Shown here: positions 10,207 through 25,380 of the stretch, piece after piece
Layout of the letters: every line of letters starts with the position of its first letter
Position numbering within the stretch: position 1 is the first letter of the stretch
DNA from: Candidatus Bathyarchaeota archaeon
GTDB lineage: Archaea > Thermoproteota > Bathyarchaeia > Bathyarchaeales > Bathycorpusculaceae
Assembly: GCA_013388895.1 (NCBI GenBank)
Contig: JACAEK010000009.1
Coordinates: 1-53,673, forward strand
Direction of reading: 5' to 3'
Length of the DNA stretch: 53,673 nucleotides
Notes under the pieces: generated by a model
Databases searched by the model: none
The model's input: the letters and a program-made list of their open reading frames with translations, nothing else
Told to the model about the DNA's origin: nothing
Translations under genes and position numbers: made by a program

Positions 10207-11094
10207 ATGAAGGAAGCTTATGGTTATCTCTTGATTGTAGTAGCCTCGCTGTTATGGGGAACCATGGGGGTTCTAGGAAAACTTGCCTTTGAATATGGCA
10301 TCAATCCTGTAACGCTGACTGCCCTTAGACTGCTCATATCTTCTCTAACGATTCTTGTGCCCATACTTTTGTCCAAAAAAGAATCATTTAGAATTTACAA
10401 AAAAGACCTATCTCAATTCTTAGTTCTCGGCATTTTCGCTATTGCTCTTCAAAGAATAGCTTATTTTTATGCTGTCAACTTGACAACAGCCACAATCGCT
10501 GCCATACTGTTCTACATGTACCCCATTTTCATCACAATCTACTGTGCATCAATGCTTAAGGAAAAGGTAACGCTTCCAATTGTGTTTGCAATAATTTTGA
10601 CGTTTTCTGGCGTTGCCTTAGTGGTGAAAATCTATGAAGCTGCATCGTTAAGCACAAGTTTTGTAGGAATAGTGTTCGGAATGTTGTCAAGTGTTCTCTT
10701 TGCTCTTTACTTCCTTACTGTCAAGAAATTGAGAAGCCACTATGCAAATTGGACTTTGATGCTCTATGGTGATGGAATAGGTGCGGCTGTTCTAGCGCCA
10801 GTGATTGCTTCAACATTTTCTGAGATTCTCAGTTTTTCTCCGCAACTATGGCTCATTATACTGACCATAGCTTGGTTTCCTTCATTGTTGGCATACTTCA
10901 TATACTCCCACGCATTGAAACACGTTGAATCCTCAAAAGGAAGCATATTGTCGGCTATCGAGCCTCTATCAGCAGCAGTTTTTTCAGCAACTATACTTAG
11001 AGAGAATTTTGAGCTTTTGCAGGTTGTAGGCGTAATACTCGCATTGACAGGAGTAATTGTGCTCTTTTATAAACCCAAATTCAAAATTAGGTAA
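10207..11094 (+). CDS. EamA/DMT-family permease
   Basis: A 295-residue drug/metabolite transporter with ten predicted transmembrane helices arranged as two EamA repeats (about 1-140 and 150-290). The opening LLWGTMGVLGKLAFEYG and the repeat-two counterpart around SSVLFALYFLTVKKL are typical. Such carriers export metabolites or amino acids at the cytoplasmic membrane; the substrate cannot be predicted. It is divergent from hypE and precedes the ribosomal operon with a 168 bp gap, so it is probably a separate unit. Confidence 0.9.
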   Translation: MKEAYGYLLIVVASLLWGTMGVLGKLAFEYGINPVTLTALRLLISSLTILVPILLSKKESFRIYKKDLSQFLVLGIFAIALQRIAYFYAVNLTTATIAAILFYMYPIFITIYCASMLKEKVTLPIVFAIILTFSGVALVVKIYEAASLSTSFVGIVFGMLSSVLFALYFLTVKKLRSHYANWTLMLYGDGIGAAVLAPVIASTFSEILSFSPQLWLIILTIAWFPSLLAYFIYSHALKHVESSKGSILSAIEPLSAAVFSATILRENFELLQVVGVILALTGVIVLFYKPKFKIR

Positions 11095-11222
11095 GCTACA
11101 CATCTTATTGGCAAAAGTGAAAGCTGTCCAAAACCTTAGATTATTAACTTAACGAGAAAAAGGACAGTTCAACCTTTTAGAAAATGCGAAAAAATCGGAA
11201 AATGTTGATACTAATGGAAAGC

Positions 11223-11231
11223 CATATAAAT
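11223..11231 (+). promoter_or_regulatory. TATA box of the ribosomal operon
   Basis: CATATAAAT lies 40-52 bp upstream of the L22 start region. Transcription would start about 25 bp downstream (near 11250), leaving a short leader that includes the GGAG at 11260-11263. No ribosomal gene lies upstream, so this is the likely main promoter for the whole cluster. Confidence 0.6.
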
Positions 11232-11274
11232 CGCTGTTACGCTGTTCAATTGCACAGTTGGAGTGAATATAAAA

Positions 11275-19180: not shown

Positions 19181-19666
19181 GTGACAGAAGCCAAAAAACC
19201 CAAATGCATTTGCGCTATAAGAGTCCGCGGAACCGTTAGAGCTTCATTAGATGTTAGAAATACTCTTCAAATGCTCCATTTGACGAGAAACAATCATGCT
19301 ATATTGATTGATGACCGTCCATCCTTCACCGGAATGCTGAAAACAGTGCGCAACTTTGTTACTTGGGGTGAAGCCTCAAAGGAATCAGTGGGTTTGCTAG
19401 TGAAGAAAAAGGGAAAACTCGGCGGAAACAAGAAATTGACAGATGAATACTCGCAAACTGTAGGCGTCAAATCATTAGACGAACTTGCAGAAGCCATATT
19501 TGATGGACGCATCGAATACTGGAATCTTCCAAAGATACAGCCAATTTTCAAGTTGCATCCACCAAGCCGAGGATTCAAAGGAAAAATAAAGAGAAGCTAT
19601 GGCGCTGGTGGCGAGTTGGGCTATCGTGGAGAAAACATCAACGACTTAATAAAGCGAATGCTTTAA
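19181..19666 (+). CDS. rpl30: 50S ribosomal protein L30 (uL30)
   Basis: A 161-residue archaeal L30, starting at GTG directly after the S5 stop. The opening CICAIRVRGTVRASLDVRNT and LHLTRNNHAILIDD are the L30 core; the extended archaeal C-terminus (FKLHPPSRGFKGKIKRSYGA) is present. In most archaea L15 follows directly; here an 80 bp gap and an Hsp20-like gene intervene, and a TATA-like sequence occupies the gap. Confidence 0.96.
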   Translation: MTEAKKPKCICAIRVRGTVRASLDVRNTLQMLHLTRNNHAILIDDRPSFTGMLKTVRNFVTWGEASKESVGLLVKKKGKLGGNKKLTDEYSQTVGVKSLDELAEAIFDGRIEYWNLPKIQPIFKLHPPSRGFKGKIKRSYGAGGELGYRGENINDLIKRML

Positions 19667-19697
19667 GCCTTCAATTTGACATTTTTGTTTGCGATAC

Positions 19698-19706
19698 ATT
19701 TTATAA
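19698..19706 (+). promoter_or_regulatory. Possible internal promoter before the Hsp20-like gene
   Basis: TTTTATAAT sits 40 bp before the TTG start of the Hsp20-like gene, inside the otherwise tightly packed ribosomal cluster. A start of transcription about 25 bp downstream would leave a short leader containing GGAGAGAGGG (19731-19740) as ribosome site. It may allow separate control of the Hsp20-like gene, L15 and secY. Confidence 0.4.
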
Positions 19707-19745
19707 TCACTTTGGAAATGCCATTGTAAAGGAGAGAGGGTTACA

Positions 19746-20201
19746 TTGAGCGCAAAGTGGCGGAGAAACAAGAAACGTTCTAATTGGTCCAAAGTGTTTA
19801 GGACCGCAAAAAAAGTTGAGAATAAAAAGGCCCGCACATTTCGAATCAAAAAATGTGAGACCAAAAGACACGTGTATTCTAACCAATTTCGGCTTGTTAA
19901 GATTCAAAGAGACAAGGATTGGAAGGAACCTGAACCACTAGCTGATGTCATCCAAAATAAGGATGAAGTAATAATTATTGCTGAAGTTGCAGGTTTCAAG
20001 AGGGAAAACCTGAAAATTCAAGTGAAAAATCAGCATCTCGTCCTATCCGCTGAGGTTTCGGACAGAAAATACTATAAAAGTTTAAATCTCCCTATAGGAG
20101 TGATTCCAGACAAAATACGTACAGTATGTAAGAATGGAGTACTTGAAATTCGATTAAAAAAGGCTGTTGAAGAAAAAGCTGTTGATAGAGTAGCGAGTTA
20201 A
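19746..20201 (+). CDS. Hsp20/alpha-crystallin-like protein with basic N-terminus, inside ribosomal operon
   Basis: A 151-residue protein from TTG at 19746 (GGAGAGAGGG ribosome site). Residues 1-60 are extremely rich in Lys/Arg (SAKWRRNKKRSNWSKVFRTA and more), like an RNA-binding ribosomal extension. Residues about 66-140 look like an alpha-crystallin domain: PLADVIQNKDEVIIIAEVAG, NLKIQVKNQHLVLSAEVSD, RKYYKSLNLP and CKNGVLEIRLKK. The C-terminal I-x-I/V oligomerisation motif of true small heat shock proteins is not seen. It lies between L30 and L15, one base before L15. I infer a ribosome- or rRNA-associated chaperone; it could also be a lineage-specific ribosomal or assembly protein. Confidence 0.75.
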   Translation: MSAKWRRNKKRSNWSKVFRTAKKVENKKARTFRIKKCETKRHVYSNQFRLVKIQRDKDWKEPEPLADVIQNKDEVIIIAEVAGFKRENLKIQVKNQHLVLSAEVSDRKYYKSLNLPIGVIPDKIRTVCKNGVLEIRLKKAVEEKAVDRVAS

Positions 20202-20202
20202 A

Positions 20203-20643
20203 ATGCCACATAAACTTAGAAAAATCAGGAAAAAACGCGGTTCAAGAACGCAAGGCTACGGCAGAGTAGGTCAACATAGATGCCGTGGATCTAGAGGCTA
20301 CCGCAAAGCTGGACGACACAAGGGCGGATGGAGCTACGTTTTAAGATACGAACCGGACTATTACGGCAAGAAAGGGTTTGTCTCACCCCAAAGCCTGAGA
20401 CAAAAAGAAAGAATTATAAATCTAAGAGAACTTGACCAAATAGCCGAGAAAATCGCATCAGAAGAAAAAGAAGGCAAGTTTCTGATTGACTTGGAAAAAC
20501 TTGGTTACACCAAACTTCTCGGTGCTGGAAAAGTTACAAAGCCACTAATCGTGAAGATAGCCTCATGCTCGAGTTCTGCTGCTGAGAAGATAAAAGAAGT
20601 TGGCGGAGAAATATTGATTGAATCTGAAGAACATGGAGAGTAG
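20203..20643 (+). CDS. rpl15: 50S ribosomal protein L15 (uL15)
   Basis: A 146-residue archaeal L15. The N-terminal glycine/arginine-rich RNA-binding arm (RKKRGSRTQGYGRVGQHRCR) is followed by the globular domain, with GAGKVTKPLIVKIASCSSSA and AEKIKEVGGE near the end. The ATG is one base after the preceding Hsp20-like gene. secY follows after 10 bp, the normal archaeal and bacterial pairing. Confidence 0.96.
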   Translation: MPHKLRKIRKKRGSRTQGYGRVGQHRCRGSRGYRKAGRHKGGWSYVLRYEPDYYGKKGFVSPQSLRQKERIINLRELDQIAEKIASEEKEGKFLIDLEKLGYTKLLGAGKVTKPLIVKIASCSSSAAEKIKEVGGEILIESEEHGE

Positions 20644-20653
20644 CCGTTAAACC

Positions 20654-22081
20654 ATGGCTGGCAGATTTTTAAGTTTATTCAAACCCATTGCAAGAATTAT
20701 TCCAGAAATAAAAGATCCAGAACGACGTGTGCGATTCAATGAAAAAATCTTCTGGACAGCCCTTGTTCTAATCATCTACTTGATAATGTCAGAAGTTCGC
20801 TTATATGGCGTTCCAACAACAATAGAAGAAAGACTTAGTGCATTAAGAGTAATTTTCGCCTCCAATCGCGGAACACTCATGGAGCTTGGAATAGGTCCTA
20901 TAGTTACAGCTGGATTAATACTACAACTCTTAATCGGTTCAGCAATGGTACAGGCTGACATGTCCAACCCAGAAGACCGAAGCCTTTTCACGACAGCCAG
21001 CAAAGTCTTTGCAATAATCCTCACCGGAGTTCAAGCGATCGCATACATAGTTGGCGGAATGTACAACACGGCAGAAACGACATTGCCAGGCACAGCCGCG
21101 ATAATCATTTTCCTTCAGCTTCTAGCATCTGGACTCATAGTTATGCTACTAGACGAGCTGGTTCAAAAGGGATGGGGATTCGGCAGCGGCATAAGCCTTT
21201 TCATCATGGCTGGTGTTGCGCAGCAAATTTTCTGGCAATGCTTCTCTCCTGGAACTGGCTTGTTTGTCGGGGCACTTTCAGTTATGCTGGGTGGCAACGA
21301 GCCACTAACTTGGTGGATATTTGGAGGAGGCTCATATCCGTCTTTAGTCGGATTCGTAGTCACAATCATTACTTTTCTAATAATAATTTACGTGGAAGGC
21401 GTCAGAGTTGAATTGCGATTATCTTACGCTGGCTACAAAGGCTTCAGAAGCCGCTACCCAATAAAACTCCTATATGTGTCTAACCTACCTGTAATTTTCG
21501 CGTCTGCTCTCTTCGCTAACGTGTATTTGTTCTCTCAACTCTTCTGGAACAACTTCAATCAGAATAACTCGAATTTCTGGCTTAACCTTCTAGGACAATA
21601 TGAATGGATCGAATCATCCGGAGGCGGCGACCAAACACTCCAGCCGATCGGTGGACTTGTGTATTATGTGACCGCACCCCACAGTCTCTCAGATGTTGCC
21701 GCACGCCCTGACAGAGCCTTCGGCTATCTTGCAATTCTTATTGTTTTTTGCATCATTTTTTCACTTACGTGGCTTGAGGTAGGCGGTCTAGGACCATCAA
21801 CAATAGGTAAACAACTTGTTGATGCTGGTATGCAGATTCCTGGCTATAGACGTTCTGGAAGAGCTATGGAATCTATTCTTAAGCGGTACATCCCAACAGT
21901 CACAGTTCTTGGTGGAATAATCGTTGCATTAATCGCAGGGGTCTCGGATTTCTTTGGAGTCTTTGGTTCGGGAATGGGCATTCTGCTTTCCGTAGGCATA
22001 CTCTATCAGTACTATGAGCTGTTGATGCGTGAAAGAGCATCCGAAATGTATCCAGCCTTTAGGCGGTTATTTGGCGAATAA
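20654..22081 (+). CDS. secY: Preprotein translocase subunit SecY
   Basis: A 475-residue SecY/Sec61-alpha with ten transmembrane helices, the pore of the Sec translocon. Archaeal signatures are the start FLSLFKPIARIIPEIKDPER, the plug-region YGVPTT near residue 52, LGIGPIVTAGLILQLL (helix 2b), GFGSGISLFIMAGVAQQIFW and the cytosolic loop ELRLSYAGYKGFRSRYPIKL that contacts the ribosome. The C-terminal YELLMRERASEMYPAFRRLFGE is typical. The gene for adenylate kinase that usually follows secY in archaea is missing here. Confidence 0.97.
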   Translation: MAGRFLSLFKPIARIIPEIKDPERRVRFNEKIFWTALVLIIYLIMSEVRLYGVPTTIEERLSALRVIFASNRGTLMELGIGPIVTAGLILQLLIGSAMVQADMSNPEDRSLFTTASKVFAIILTGVQAIAYIVGGMYNTAETTLPGTAAIIIFLQLLASGLIVMLLDELVQKGWGFGSGISLFIMAGVAQQIFWQCFSPGTGLFVGALSVMLGGNEPLTWWIFGGGSYPSLVGFVVTIITFLIIIYVEGVRVELRLSYAGYKGFRSRYPIKLLYVSNLPVIFASALFANVYLFSQLFWNNFNQNNSNFWLNLLGQYEWIESSGGGDQTLQPIGGLVYYVTAPHSLSDVAARPDRAFGYLAILIVFCIIFSLTWLEVGGLGPSTIGKQLVDAGMQIPGYRRSGRAMESILKRYIPTVTVLGGIIVALIAGVSDFFGVFGSGMGILLSVGILYQYYELLMRERASEMYPAFRRLFGE

Positions 22082-23693: not shown

Positions 23694-24098
23694 ATGAAGA
23701 TGAAAGAACGCACAACTAGAATCAGCTATCCATTTTTGATTTGTTCCCTGCTAAGCATTGCGTTTTGTATATTTCTTTCCCTTGCGTTTATTAATGTAGA
23801 ATCAACGTCAATGCTTATTGTTTTCAACTTACTTTTTGCCTCTCTCATGTTTCCACTGAAAGGAAGCTTCGCAAGGAAGACTTGTCTGCTCCTAATAGGT
23901 AATGTTACTGGTTTGTTCTGGAACTATCTCTTTTCCTCATTCGCTTCTGTAGGCGTCAAAGTCTTTGGGGAGTTCTTCAACGCCATCTATCTAATTCTTA
24001 ACCCATTTGCAAATCTCATATGGATTGTTTCCTTTTGGTCTTTGAGCTTAACAGCGTTAATTGATTTTGAAAATAAGAAACTAGGTGTCAGAACTTGA
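23694..24098 (+). CDS. Small membrane protein of unknown function
   Basis: A 134-residue hydrophobic protein with about four transmembrane helices (12-34, 37-56, 62-85, 100-122). No conserved motif recognised. GGAGAATG just upstream gives a fair ribosome site; the in-frame ATG at 23700 is an alternative. Its stop overlaps the TTG start of the following glycosyltransferase, so the two are coupled and it may be a partner or regulatory membrane subunit of that synthase. Confidence 0.6.
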   Translation: MKMKERTTRISYPFLICSLLSIAFCIFLSLAFINVESTSMLIVFNLLFASLMFPLKGSFARKTCLLLIGNVTGLFWNYLFSSFASVGVKVFGEFFNAIYLILNPFANLIWIVSFWSLSLTALIDFENKKLGVRT

Positions 24099-25380
24099 TT
24101 GCTGAAATTTTGGAAGCCTTATTTCTCATTCTGGCAATTTTCATGGCTGTTTATCTCGTGAGGCATTATATTTTCACTGTAACTGTTCTCAAAAACGTCT
24201 CGCGAAATAGAGAATTGGACGCTGTTACAGCGGTTGAAGCTTGCCCGCCGCAGGTGTTAATCCTAATTCCCGCACATAATGAGGAGCGAGTTATCGGACG
24301 TTTACTTCAAAGAATAACTGAACTAACTTATCCTAAAGAAAAAACGCAGATAATCGTCATCGATGATGCTTCAACAGATGACACTGGAAAAATAGCCAAG
24401 CAATACTCGGCGACGTATACGTATATAAAAACCATACATCGAAACAAAAAAGAAGGTGGACACGGAAAAGCGTCAGCCTTGAACGCTGGGCTTAAACATG
24501 CCGATGGCGAAATTATTCTATGTTTTGATGCTGATTATTATCCTCAAATCGATTTCATAGAAAAATTAACAAGAGAATTTGCTGACCCAGAAGTCGGCGT
24601 AGTACAGGGCAGAATCACCGTTATGAATGAACCGCAGAACACTGTGACTAGACTTGTAGCCTTGGAAAGGATAGGTGGATATGGCGTTGACCAGCAAGCA
24701 CGAGAAGGACTGGGTTTGATAACTCAGTTTGGAGGCACTGCTGGTGGTGTTAGACGTAGCCTACTAGAGCGTCTGGGCGGGTGGGACGAATCGACTTTAG
24801 CTGAAGATACTGATTTGACTTTTCGCGTATATTTAGCGGGTTACAAGTTCGCTATGTGCCTGACGCAGAATGTTACGAGGAGGCAGTTGAAAGCTGGCGA
24901 GATTATTGGCGACAGAGATACAGGTGGGCAAAGGGACATATGCAGTGCGCCTTCAAACACTGGCTTAACGTTTTAACAAGCAGCAAGTTGACGCTTAAAC
25001 AGAAAATTGACGGTTTTATTCTTTTGAACACGTATTTTATGCCCATTCTTGTCTTGTTCTCTTGGTTTGTAGGTGTGCCACTATTTTTCACCATATCTTC
25101 GCAATGGGTTGGCATTATTTGGGCTTCTGTACCAATTTCACTTTATAGTTTCGTTGGAAATTTTGCTCCGTTTTTTGAAGTTGGAGTTGGCACATACTTG
25201 GATGATAGAACCAGAGCTCAATGGTTAATTCCCTTACTAATCTTTACATTTTTATATAATATACCAATCTGCACAAAAGCTCTCGTGGACTTGGCAATAT
25301 CCAAACTATTAAAAAGAAACGCTAATCATTGGGCAAAAACTAAACATTCAGGAAATGGAAACAGTTATATCATGAATTAA
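24095..25380 (+). pseudogene. Processive GT2 glycosyltransferase, split by a frameshift
   Basis: A membrane glycosyltransferase of the cellulose/hyaluronan synthase-like GT2 type, broken into two frames. Frame one (24095-24976) gives the N-terminal membrane helix, nucleotide-sugar binding (VIDDASTDDTGKIAKQYS), FDADYYPQIDF and the EDTDLTFR aspartates. After GGT TAC AAG at about 24847 one base appears lost: reading G24847 again continues VRYVPDAECYEEAVESW and the essential QRYRW motif, then three to four C-terminal membrane helices to 25380. As it stands the frame stops before QxxRW, so the encoded enzyme would be inactive unless the ribosome shifts by -1 or the sequence has an error. It is translationally coupled to the gene before it. 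Confidence 0.88.

Follow-up and report, generated by a model that had tools for sequence, protein, structure and literature searches.

A basic Hsp20-like protein with a gene-specific upstream element, encoded between uL30 and uL15 in the ribosomal protein cluster of Bathyarchaeia

The stretch of Candidatus Bathyarchaeota DNA analysed here (53,673 nucleotides, referred to below as the window) carries an archaeal S10-spc type cluster of ribosomal protein genes that runs from uL22 to SecY. Between uL30 and uL15 lies a 151-codon open reading frame with a TTG start codon, coding for a basic Hsp20-like protein (Table 1; the span 19667-20201 takes in the intergenic region together with the gene, the gene alone being 19746-20201). 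As an earlier note on this DNA had pointed out, the gap on the uL30 side is the lone wide one amid tightly packed spc genes: it measures 79 nt, while the other ribosomal protein neighbours overlap or lie 0-14 nt apart, and it holds both of the motifs that the note had picked out, TTTTATAAT at 19699-19707 and GGAGAGAGGG at 19731-19740. Support for the TTG start comes from 82 orthologs, whose alignments begin at nearly the same residue; their own start codons are TTG (41), ATG (34) or GTG (7).

Three further features of the window were recorded. In the region 10207-11263 the cluster begins, at uL22, with an EamA-type transporter gene before it and uL3-uL4-uL23-uL2-uS19 not directly upstream; in archaea the latter genes usually immediately precede uL22. 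The uL15 of the window scores far under the NCBIfam cut-offs (L18e matches best, with 24.8 bits against the 85 required), so that the uL15 of this lineage may escape automatic annotation. At 24095-25380, a family 2 glycosyltransferase gene is apparently split over two frames, with the join near 24860-24980, through either a frameshift or a sequencing error.

Table 1. Positions of the Hsp20-like gene, its upstream signals, its protein segments and its neighbours in the window.
Feature	Position	Strand	Evidence
uL30, upstream neighbour	19181..19666	+	NCBIfam archaeal L30, 5.5e-54
Conserved putative promoter element GCGATACATTTTATA: box at BRE position and TATA box	19691..19705	+	
GCCATTGTA stretch, moderately conserved, about 20-25 nt past the TATA box	19720..19728	+	alignment of upstream regions
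GGAGAGAGGG, Shine-Dalgarno-like	19731..19740	+	sequence; orthologs with GGAG/GGGAG at the equivalent place
Gene for basic Hsp20-like protein, 151 aa, TTG start	19746..20201	+	
N-terminal basic segment, residues 1-59, predicted disordered	19746..19922	+	pLDDT 44-54; MSAKWRRxKK start conserved
Alpha-crystallin domain (ACD), residues about 60-139	19923..20162	+	Pfam; pLDDT 72-90; Foldseek 4rzk
C-terminal tail without I-x-I/V	20163..20198	+	
uL15, 1 nt downstream of the Hsp20-like gene; adjacency never seen broken	20203..20643	+	
SecY, next gene in the presumed transcription unit with the Hsp20-like gene and uL15	20654..22081	+	translation

Within the protein, Pfam HSP20 matches residues 68-144 (E = 2.7e-10; 40.7 bits against a cut-off of 20.8), and the archaeal Hsp20 equivalog of NCBIfam, NF041800, covers residues 58-145 only, at 81.2 bits and thus under its 140-bit cut-off. 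An AlphaFold2 model built with 40 aligned orthologs gave a confident beta sandwich over approximately residues 65-140, with a disordered N-terminus and C-terminal tail. The closest solved fold was that of Saccharolobus solfataricus Hsp20.1 (4rzk), also retrieved by sequence search, and the likeness lies in the compact ACD, with 46% sequence identity across 83 columns, a TM of 0.87 to the target and an rmsd of 1.2. From profile and model together, the window protein is a member of the Hsp20/alpha-crystallin superfamily, and the earlier note's alpha-crystallin-like domain is borne out by structure prediction, which returned an Hsp20 fold. The Lys/Arg-rich N-terminus that it described proved to be present family-wide, and the C-terminal I-x-I/V motif that it had failed to see is missing in the window protein and nearly throughout the family. 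In the ortholog alignment, the N-terminus is poorly conserved after the first dozen or so residues, its middle varying in both length and sequence. Relative to the NF041800 group and Hsp20.1, the window protein lacks the I-x-I tail and has a different, basic N-terminus, and its net charge is opposite to that of its canonical relatives.

All 61 relatives searched have some Hsp20. Near full-length matches came for the most part from the family to which the window belongs (f1, which includes Ca. Bathycorpusculum) and a sister family (f2, which includes UBA233 and JdFR-04), with a longer relative in f4. The gene is not confined to this contig, since f1 and f2 hold 82 distinct orthologs, and these were compared together with one f4 and one f15 locus, giving 84 loci. 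uL15 lies downstream in 83 of them, at 50 nt or less save in f4, where 111 nt lie between it and the aligned end, and the remaining locus is at a contig edge; as the earlier note had proposed, the gene is thus encoded together with ribosomal proteins, uL15 being directly downstream wherever the contig allows. uL30 was found no more than 100 nt upstream at 41 of the 84 loci, at 116 nt in f4, at 281-1932 nt in 14, and not within the available stretch in 28, some of which are at contig ends. These counts show that linkage is strict to uL15 and not to uL30. At eight loci from Bathycorpusculum and several relatives (L036, L155, L157, L163, L166, L177, L182 and L186), 0.3-1.9 kb of mostly unconserved sequence parts uL30 from the Hsp20-uL15 unit, so that the spc operon would there be split exactly at the gene's putative promoter. 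The survey of the L30-L15 interval suggested in the earlier note therefore finds the arrangement conserved in f1 and f2 and an Hsp20 in the same slot in other Bathyarchaeia and beyond; the recurrence of the same gene, slot and upstream element in tens of species takes the arrangement far beyond chance. The orthologs come from Bathycorpusculum, from bog, fen and sediment metagenome-assembled genomes and from other sources, which makes a purely heat-related role unlikely.

The start codon is preceded, mostly at 53-60 nt, by the element GCGATAYNTTTTATA (small variants allowed) in 81 of the 84 loci, the search pattern itself having been derived from these loci; the element is retained also where uL30 has moved off. 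Its information content was computed on sequences selected by the box and is not independent, so that the count over the loci is the fairer measure. Independent evidence for a gene-specific element came from an exact scan of 37 genomes, which returned 20 sites, one per genome and each before the Hsp20-like gene, against none in the reversed control. Judged by its boxes and position, the element would drive the Hsp20-like gene, uL15 and SecY as a BRE/TATA-type promoter of their own, and the spacing of the GCCATTGTA stretch makes this the likely transcription start region. The slot-borne Hsp20 of f6 has related boxes ahead of it (CGATAC-A-TTTATA, GCGATAATCTTTATAG), CGATA and TATA standing upstream there as they do at the f1/f2 gene. 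The promoter-like element that the earlier note had seen in the gap is thus upheld, while the separate response to stress that it attached to the gene is unsupported: the canonical Hsp20 paralog of the same genomes has a different conserved promoter, GCATAAAATTTATAG, which the element does not resemble, and no HSR1-type CTAAC-N5-GTTAG was seen in it by eye.

Two other roles for the upstream region were considered and rejected. A regulon with a common element was rejected since, at two mismatches or fewer, the window's genome gave 14 matches and the reversed control also 14; two further element sites were inspected and neither was properly placed before a gene. RNAalifold on 78 aligned leaders returned no structure that would make the 79-nt gap an RNA leader or riboregulator, and single-sequence folding of the leader gave z = -1.9.

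The surroundings of uL15 were examined in some 60 further members of the class and in 40 genomes outside it. Within the class, an Hsp20 occupies the uL30-uL15 slot in f1, f2, f4, f6, f10, f12, f21 and one of two f23 genomes, and in f15 it lies directly before uL15, uL30 not being seen. Outside the class the slot is filled in five families: f34 (three genomes), f30 (one of two), f49, f51 and f54. It is empty, with uL30 adjoining uL15, in f3, f7, f8, f9 and many more of the families surveyed. In a full-length tree from which the fast-evolving f4, f10, f23 and f51 rows were left out, a single split, with support of 99/96, separates slot-borne Hsp20s from the unlinked ones that these lineages also carry; an ACD-only tree that includes those rows has no clean split (6 label changes versus 1) and carries long-branch warnings. 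A 2023 survey places an Hsp20 within the S10-spc cluster of two Asgard groups, Thor- and Odinarchaeota, and suggests that it came by horizontal transfer (PMC10833476). The wide spread across families suggests an older and mostly vertical association with the slot, at least within this phylum, and the simplest reading would be that the slot-borne lineage is old and was lost many times, though transfers may still have played a part. On this reading, Hsp20 has been a neighbour of ribosomal protein genes from early in the evolution of archaea, as a long-standing lineage of the uL30-uL15 slot.

Two families hold divergent forms in this slot. The f10 copies (L104:1461-1910 and L105:1470-1910, reverse-complement coordinates) are 146-149 aa long, with a TTG start, a short basic N-terminus and no I-x-I, and are possibly a second, independent reduction; only long branches draw them together with the copy in f23. 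The latter (L093:1149-1649) is a strongly diverged Hsp20 of 166 aa, Pro-rich at the N-terminus and carrying a VIPI stretch at the C-terminus.

The changes in f1 and f2 were measured by comparing 80 of their proteins with 28 unlinked paralogs and 11 canonical slot-borne copies; a canonical paralog occurs elsewhere in the same genomes. The canonical slot-borne proteins (f6, f12, f15 and f21 in Bathyarchaeia; f30, f34, f49, f51 and f54 outside) share the slot and a homologous ACD, but are about 185 aa long, with a pI of about 6. In the order f1/f2, unlinked and canonical slot-borne, the lengths are 149, 197 and 185 aa, the pI values 10.3, 7.0 and 6.2, and the mean net charges of the N-terminus +15.4, +2.1 and +0.5. 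FILMVW residues make up 22% of the N-terminal arm in f1/f2, against 29-31% in the comparison groups, so that the arm is not a hydrophobic one. While the N-terminal arm is variable across small heat shock proteins, the C-terminal I-x-I/V is their usual, though not universal, oligomer motif. An I-x-I-like tail was found in 4 of 80 f1/f2 proteins, as against 28/28 unlinked and 11/11 canonical slot-borne ones. Three of these four belong to f2, whose members look like a middle stage of the remodelling, and the f4 copy still terminates in KIFVK. The ACD has kept the 76-residue length of its canonical relatives, while its net charge has gone from -3.3/-3.9 in these to +5.3 in f1/f2, with 14 family-specific changes, several of which remove acids or add lysines. 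Taken together, the alignments indicate a neofunctionalised Hsp20, in which the I-x-I tail was lost, a disordered basic N-terminus replaced a hydrophobic one and the charge of the ACD was reversed.

Purifying selection on the Hsp20-like gene equals that on uL15 and uL30, with dN/dS values between the two closest genomes of 0.14 (0.16 for the N-terminus), 0.14 and 0.13, respectively. The codon-usage index of the gene (0.71) is under that of most window genes and carries no signature like that of ribosomal protein genes; codon usage was dropped as a sign of ribosomal protein-like expression, being uninformative.

Our preferred reading, held tentatively, is that the protein may be an RNA- or ribosome-associated holdase chaperone, derived from Hsp20 and made with uL15 and SecY. 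It would stay small, as a dimer or monomer; the basic tail and a basic face of the ACD would hold it on rRNA or the large subunit; and the open ACD groove could act as an ATP-free holdase for co-made ribosomal proteins or nascent chains, with the canonical paralog elsewhere in the genome presumably doing general heat-shock work. Binding to rRNA or the ribosome, a reasonable inference in the earlier note, is consistent with the pI of 10.3 and the conserved basic tail. E. coli IbpA acts on its own mRNA leader, and its gene is not known to lie in a ribosomal operon. It is like the window protein in being a small heat shock protein, and its demonstrated RNA-binding role provides a precedent (PMC10474464). 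The chaperone reading is weakened by the codon-usage index, which is not ribosomal protein-like, and by the poor conservation of the basic N-terminal sequence beyond its start. It is weakened too by the fact that the dedicated ribosomal protein chaperones of eukaryotes are mostly acidic, whereas the window protein is basic.

The main rival reading makes it a lineage-specific ribosomal protein, which would be built stoichiometrically into the large subunit, the ACD forming its globular body and the basic tail reaching into rRNA. The high pI, the pairing of a globular domain with a disordered basic extension, the loss of I-x-I, the strict linkage to uL15 and selection equal to that on uL15 and uL30 all speak for it, although of these the genomic linkage, basic pI and strong purifying selection, as traits of ribosomal proteins, are suggestive only. 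We consider it rather unlikely, given that the middle of the tail varies more in length and sequence than is usual in rRNA-contacting extensions, that the slot is filled in its relatives by plain acidic Hsp20s and that the gene is missing from sister families. The broader proposition, that a small heat shock protein was captured by the ribosome, as either a ribosomal protein or a ribosome-bound assembly chaperone built on the ACD, and arose stepwise in the slot from a canonical Hsp20, is possible, if somewhat doubtful.

It is unlikely that the gene codes for an ordinary small heat shock protein, whose location would be a historical accident preserved by operon inertia and whose basicity would reflect drift or solubility needs. 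Membership of Pfam HSP20 and the canonical Hsp20s in the slot of other lineages fit such a protein, but the charge of both segments has changed directionally and I-x-I has been lost in 76/80, while unlinked paralogs of the same genomes keep both features; the promoter, moreover, is gene-specific, and retention is not automatic, since most other families have no gene in the slot. We regard it as very unlikely that the protein binds RNA or DNA to regulate the uL15-SecY unit by feedback, with the ACD sensing misfolded protein. The gene's place as the first of its own presumed transcription unit, its basic tail and the highly conserved gene-specific element would suit such a role, which has a precedent in IbpA self-repression (PMC10474464); the element, however, looks like a core promoter and is followed by only a short leader, in which RNAalifold gave no conserved structure, the single sequence folding with the z value stated above.

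The earlier note had called the protein an undescribed component, and this stands in part. An Hsp20 in the S10-spc cluster, and hence in the same conserved ribosomal protein cluster, was published in 2023 for Thor- and Odinarchaeota (PMC10833476), in a text whose excerpt names no exact slot, no basic reduced form and no promoter. In the library searched, we found no paper on a basic, I-x-I-less, promoter-bearing Hsp20, nor on the spread of the slot-borne Hsp20 in Bathyarchaeia.

This gene bears on the question of how archaea, which are not known to have a trigger factor, shield ribosomal proteins and nascent chains. With a chaperone gene kept beside uL15-SecY in several archaeal lineages and remodelled in one family, and with apparent intermediate stages still extant in f6, f4 and f2, the locus offers a concrete case in which the passage of a chaperone onto the ribosome can be put to the test.
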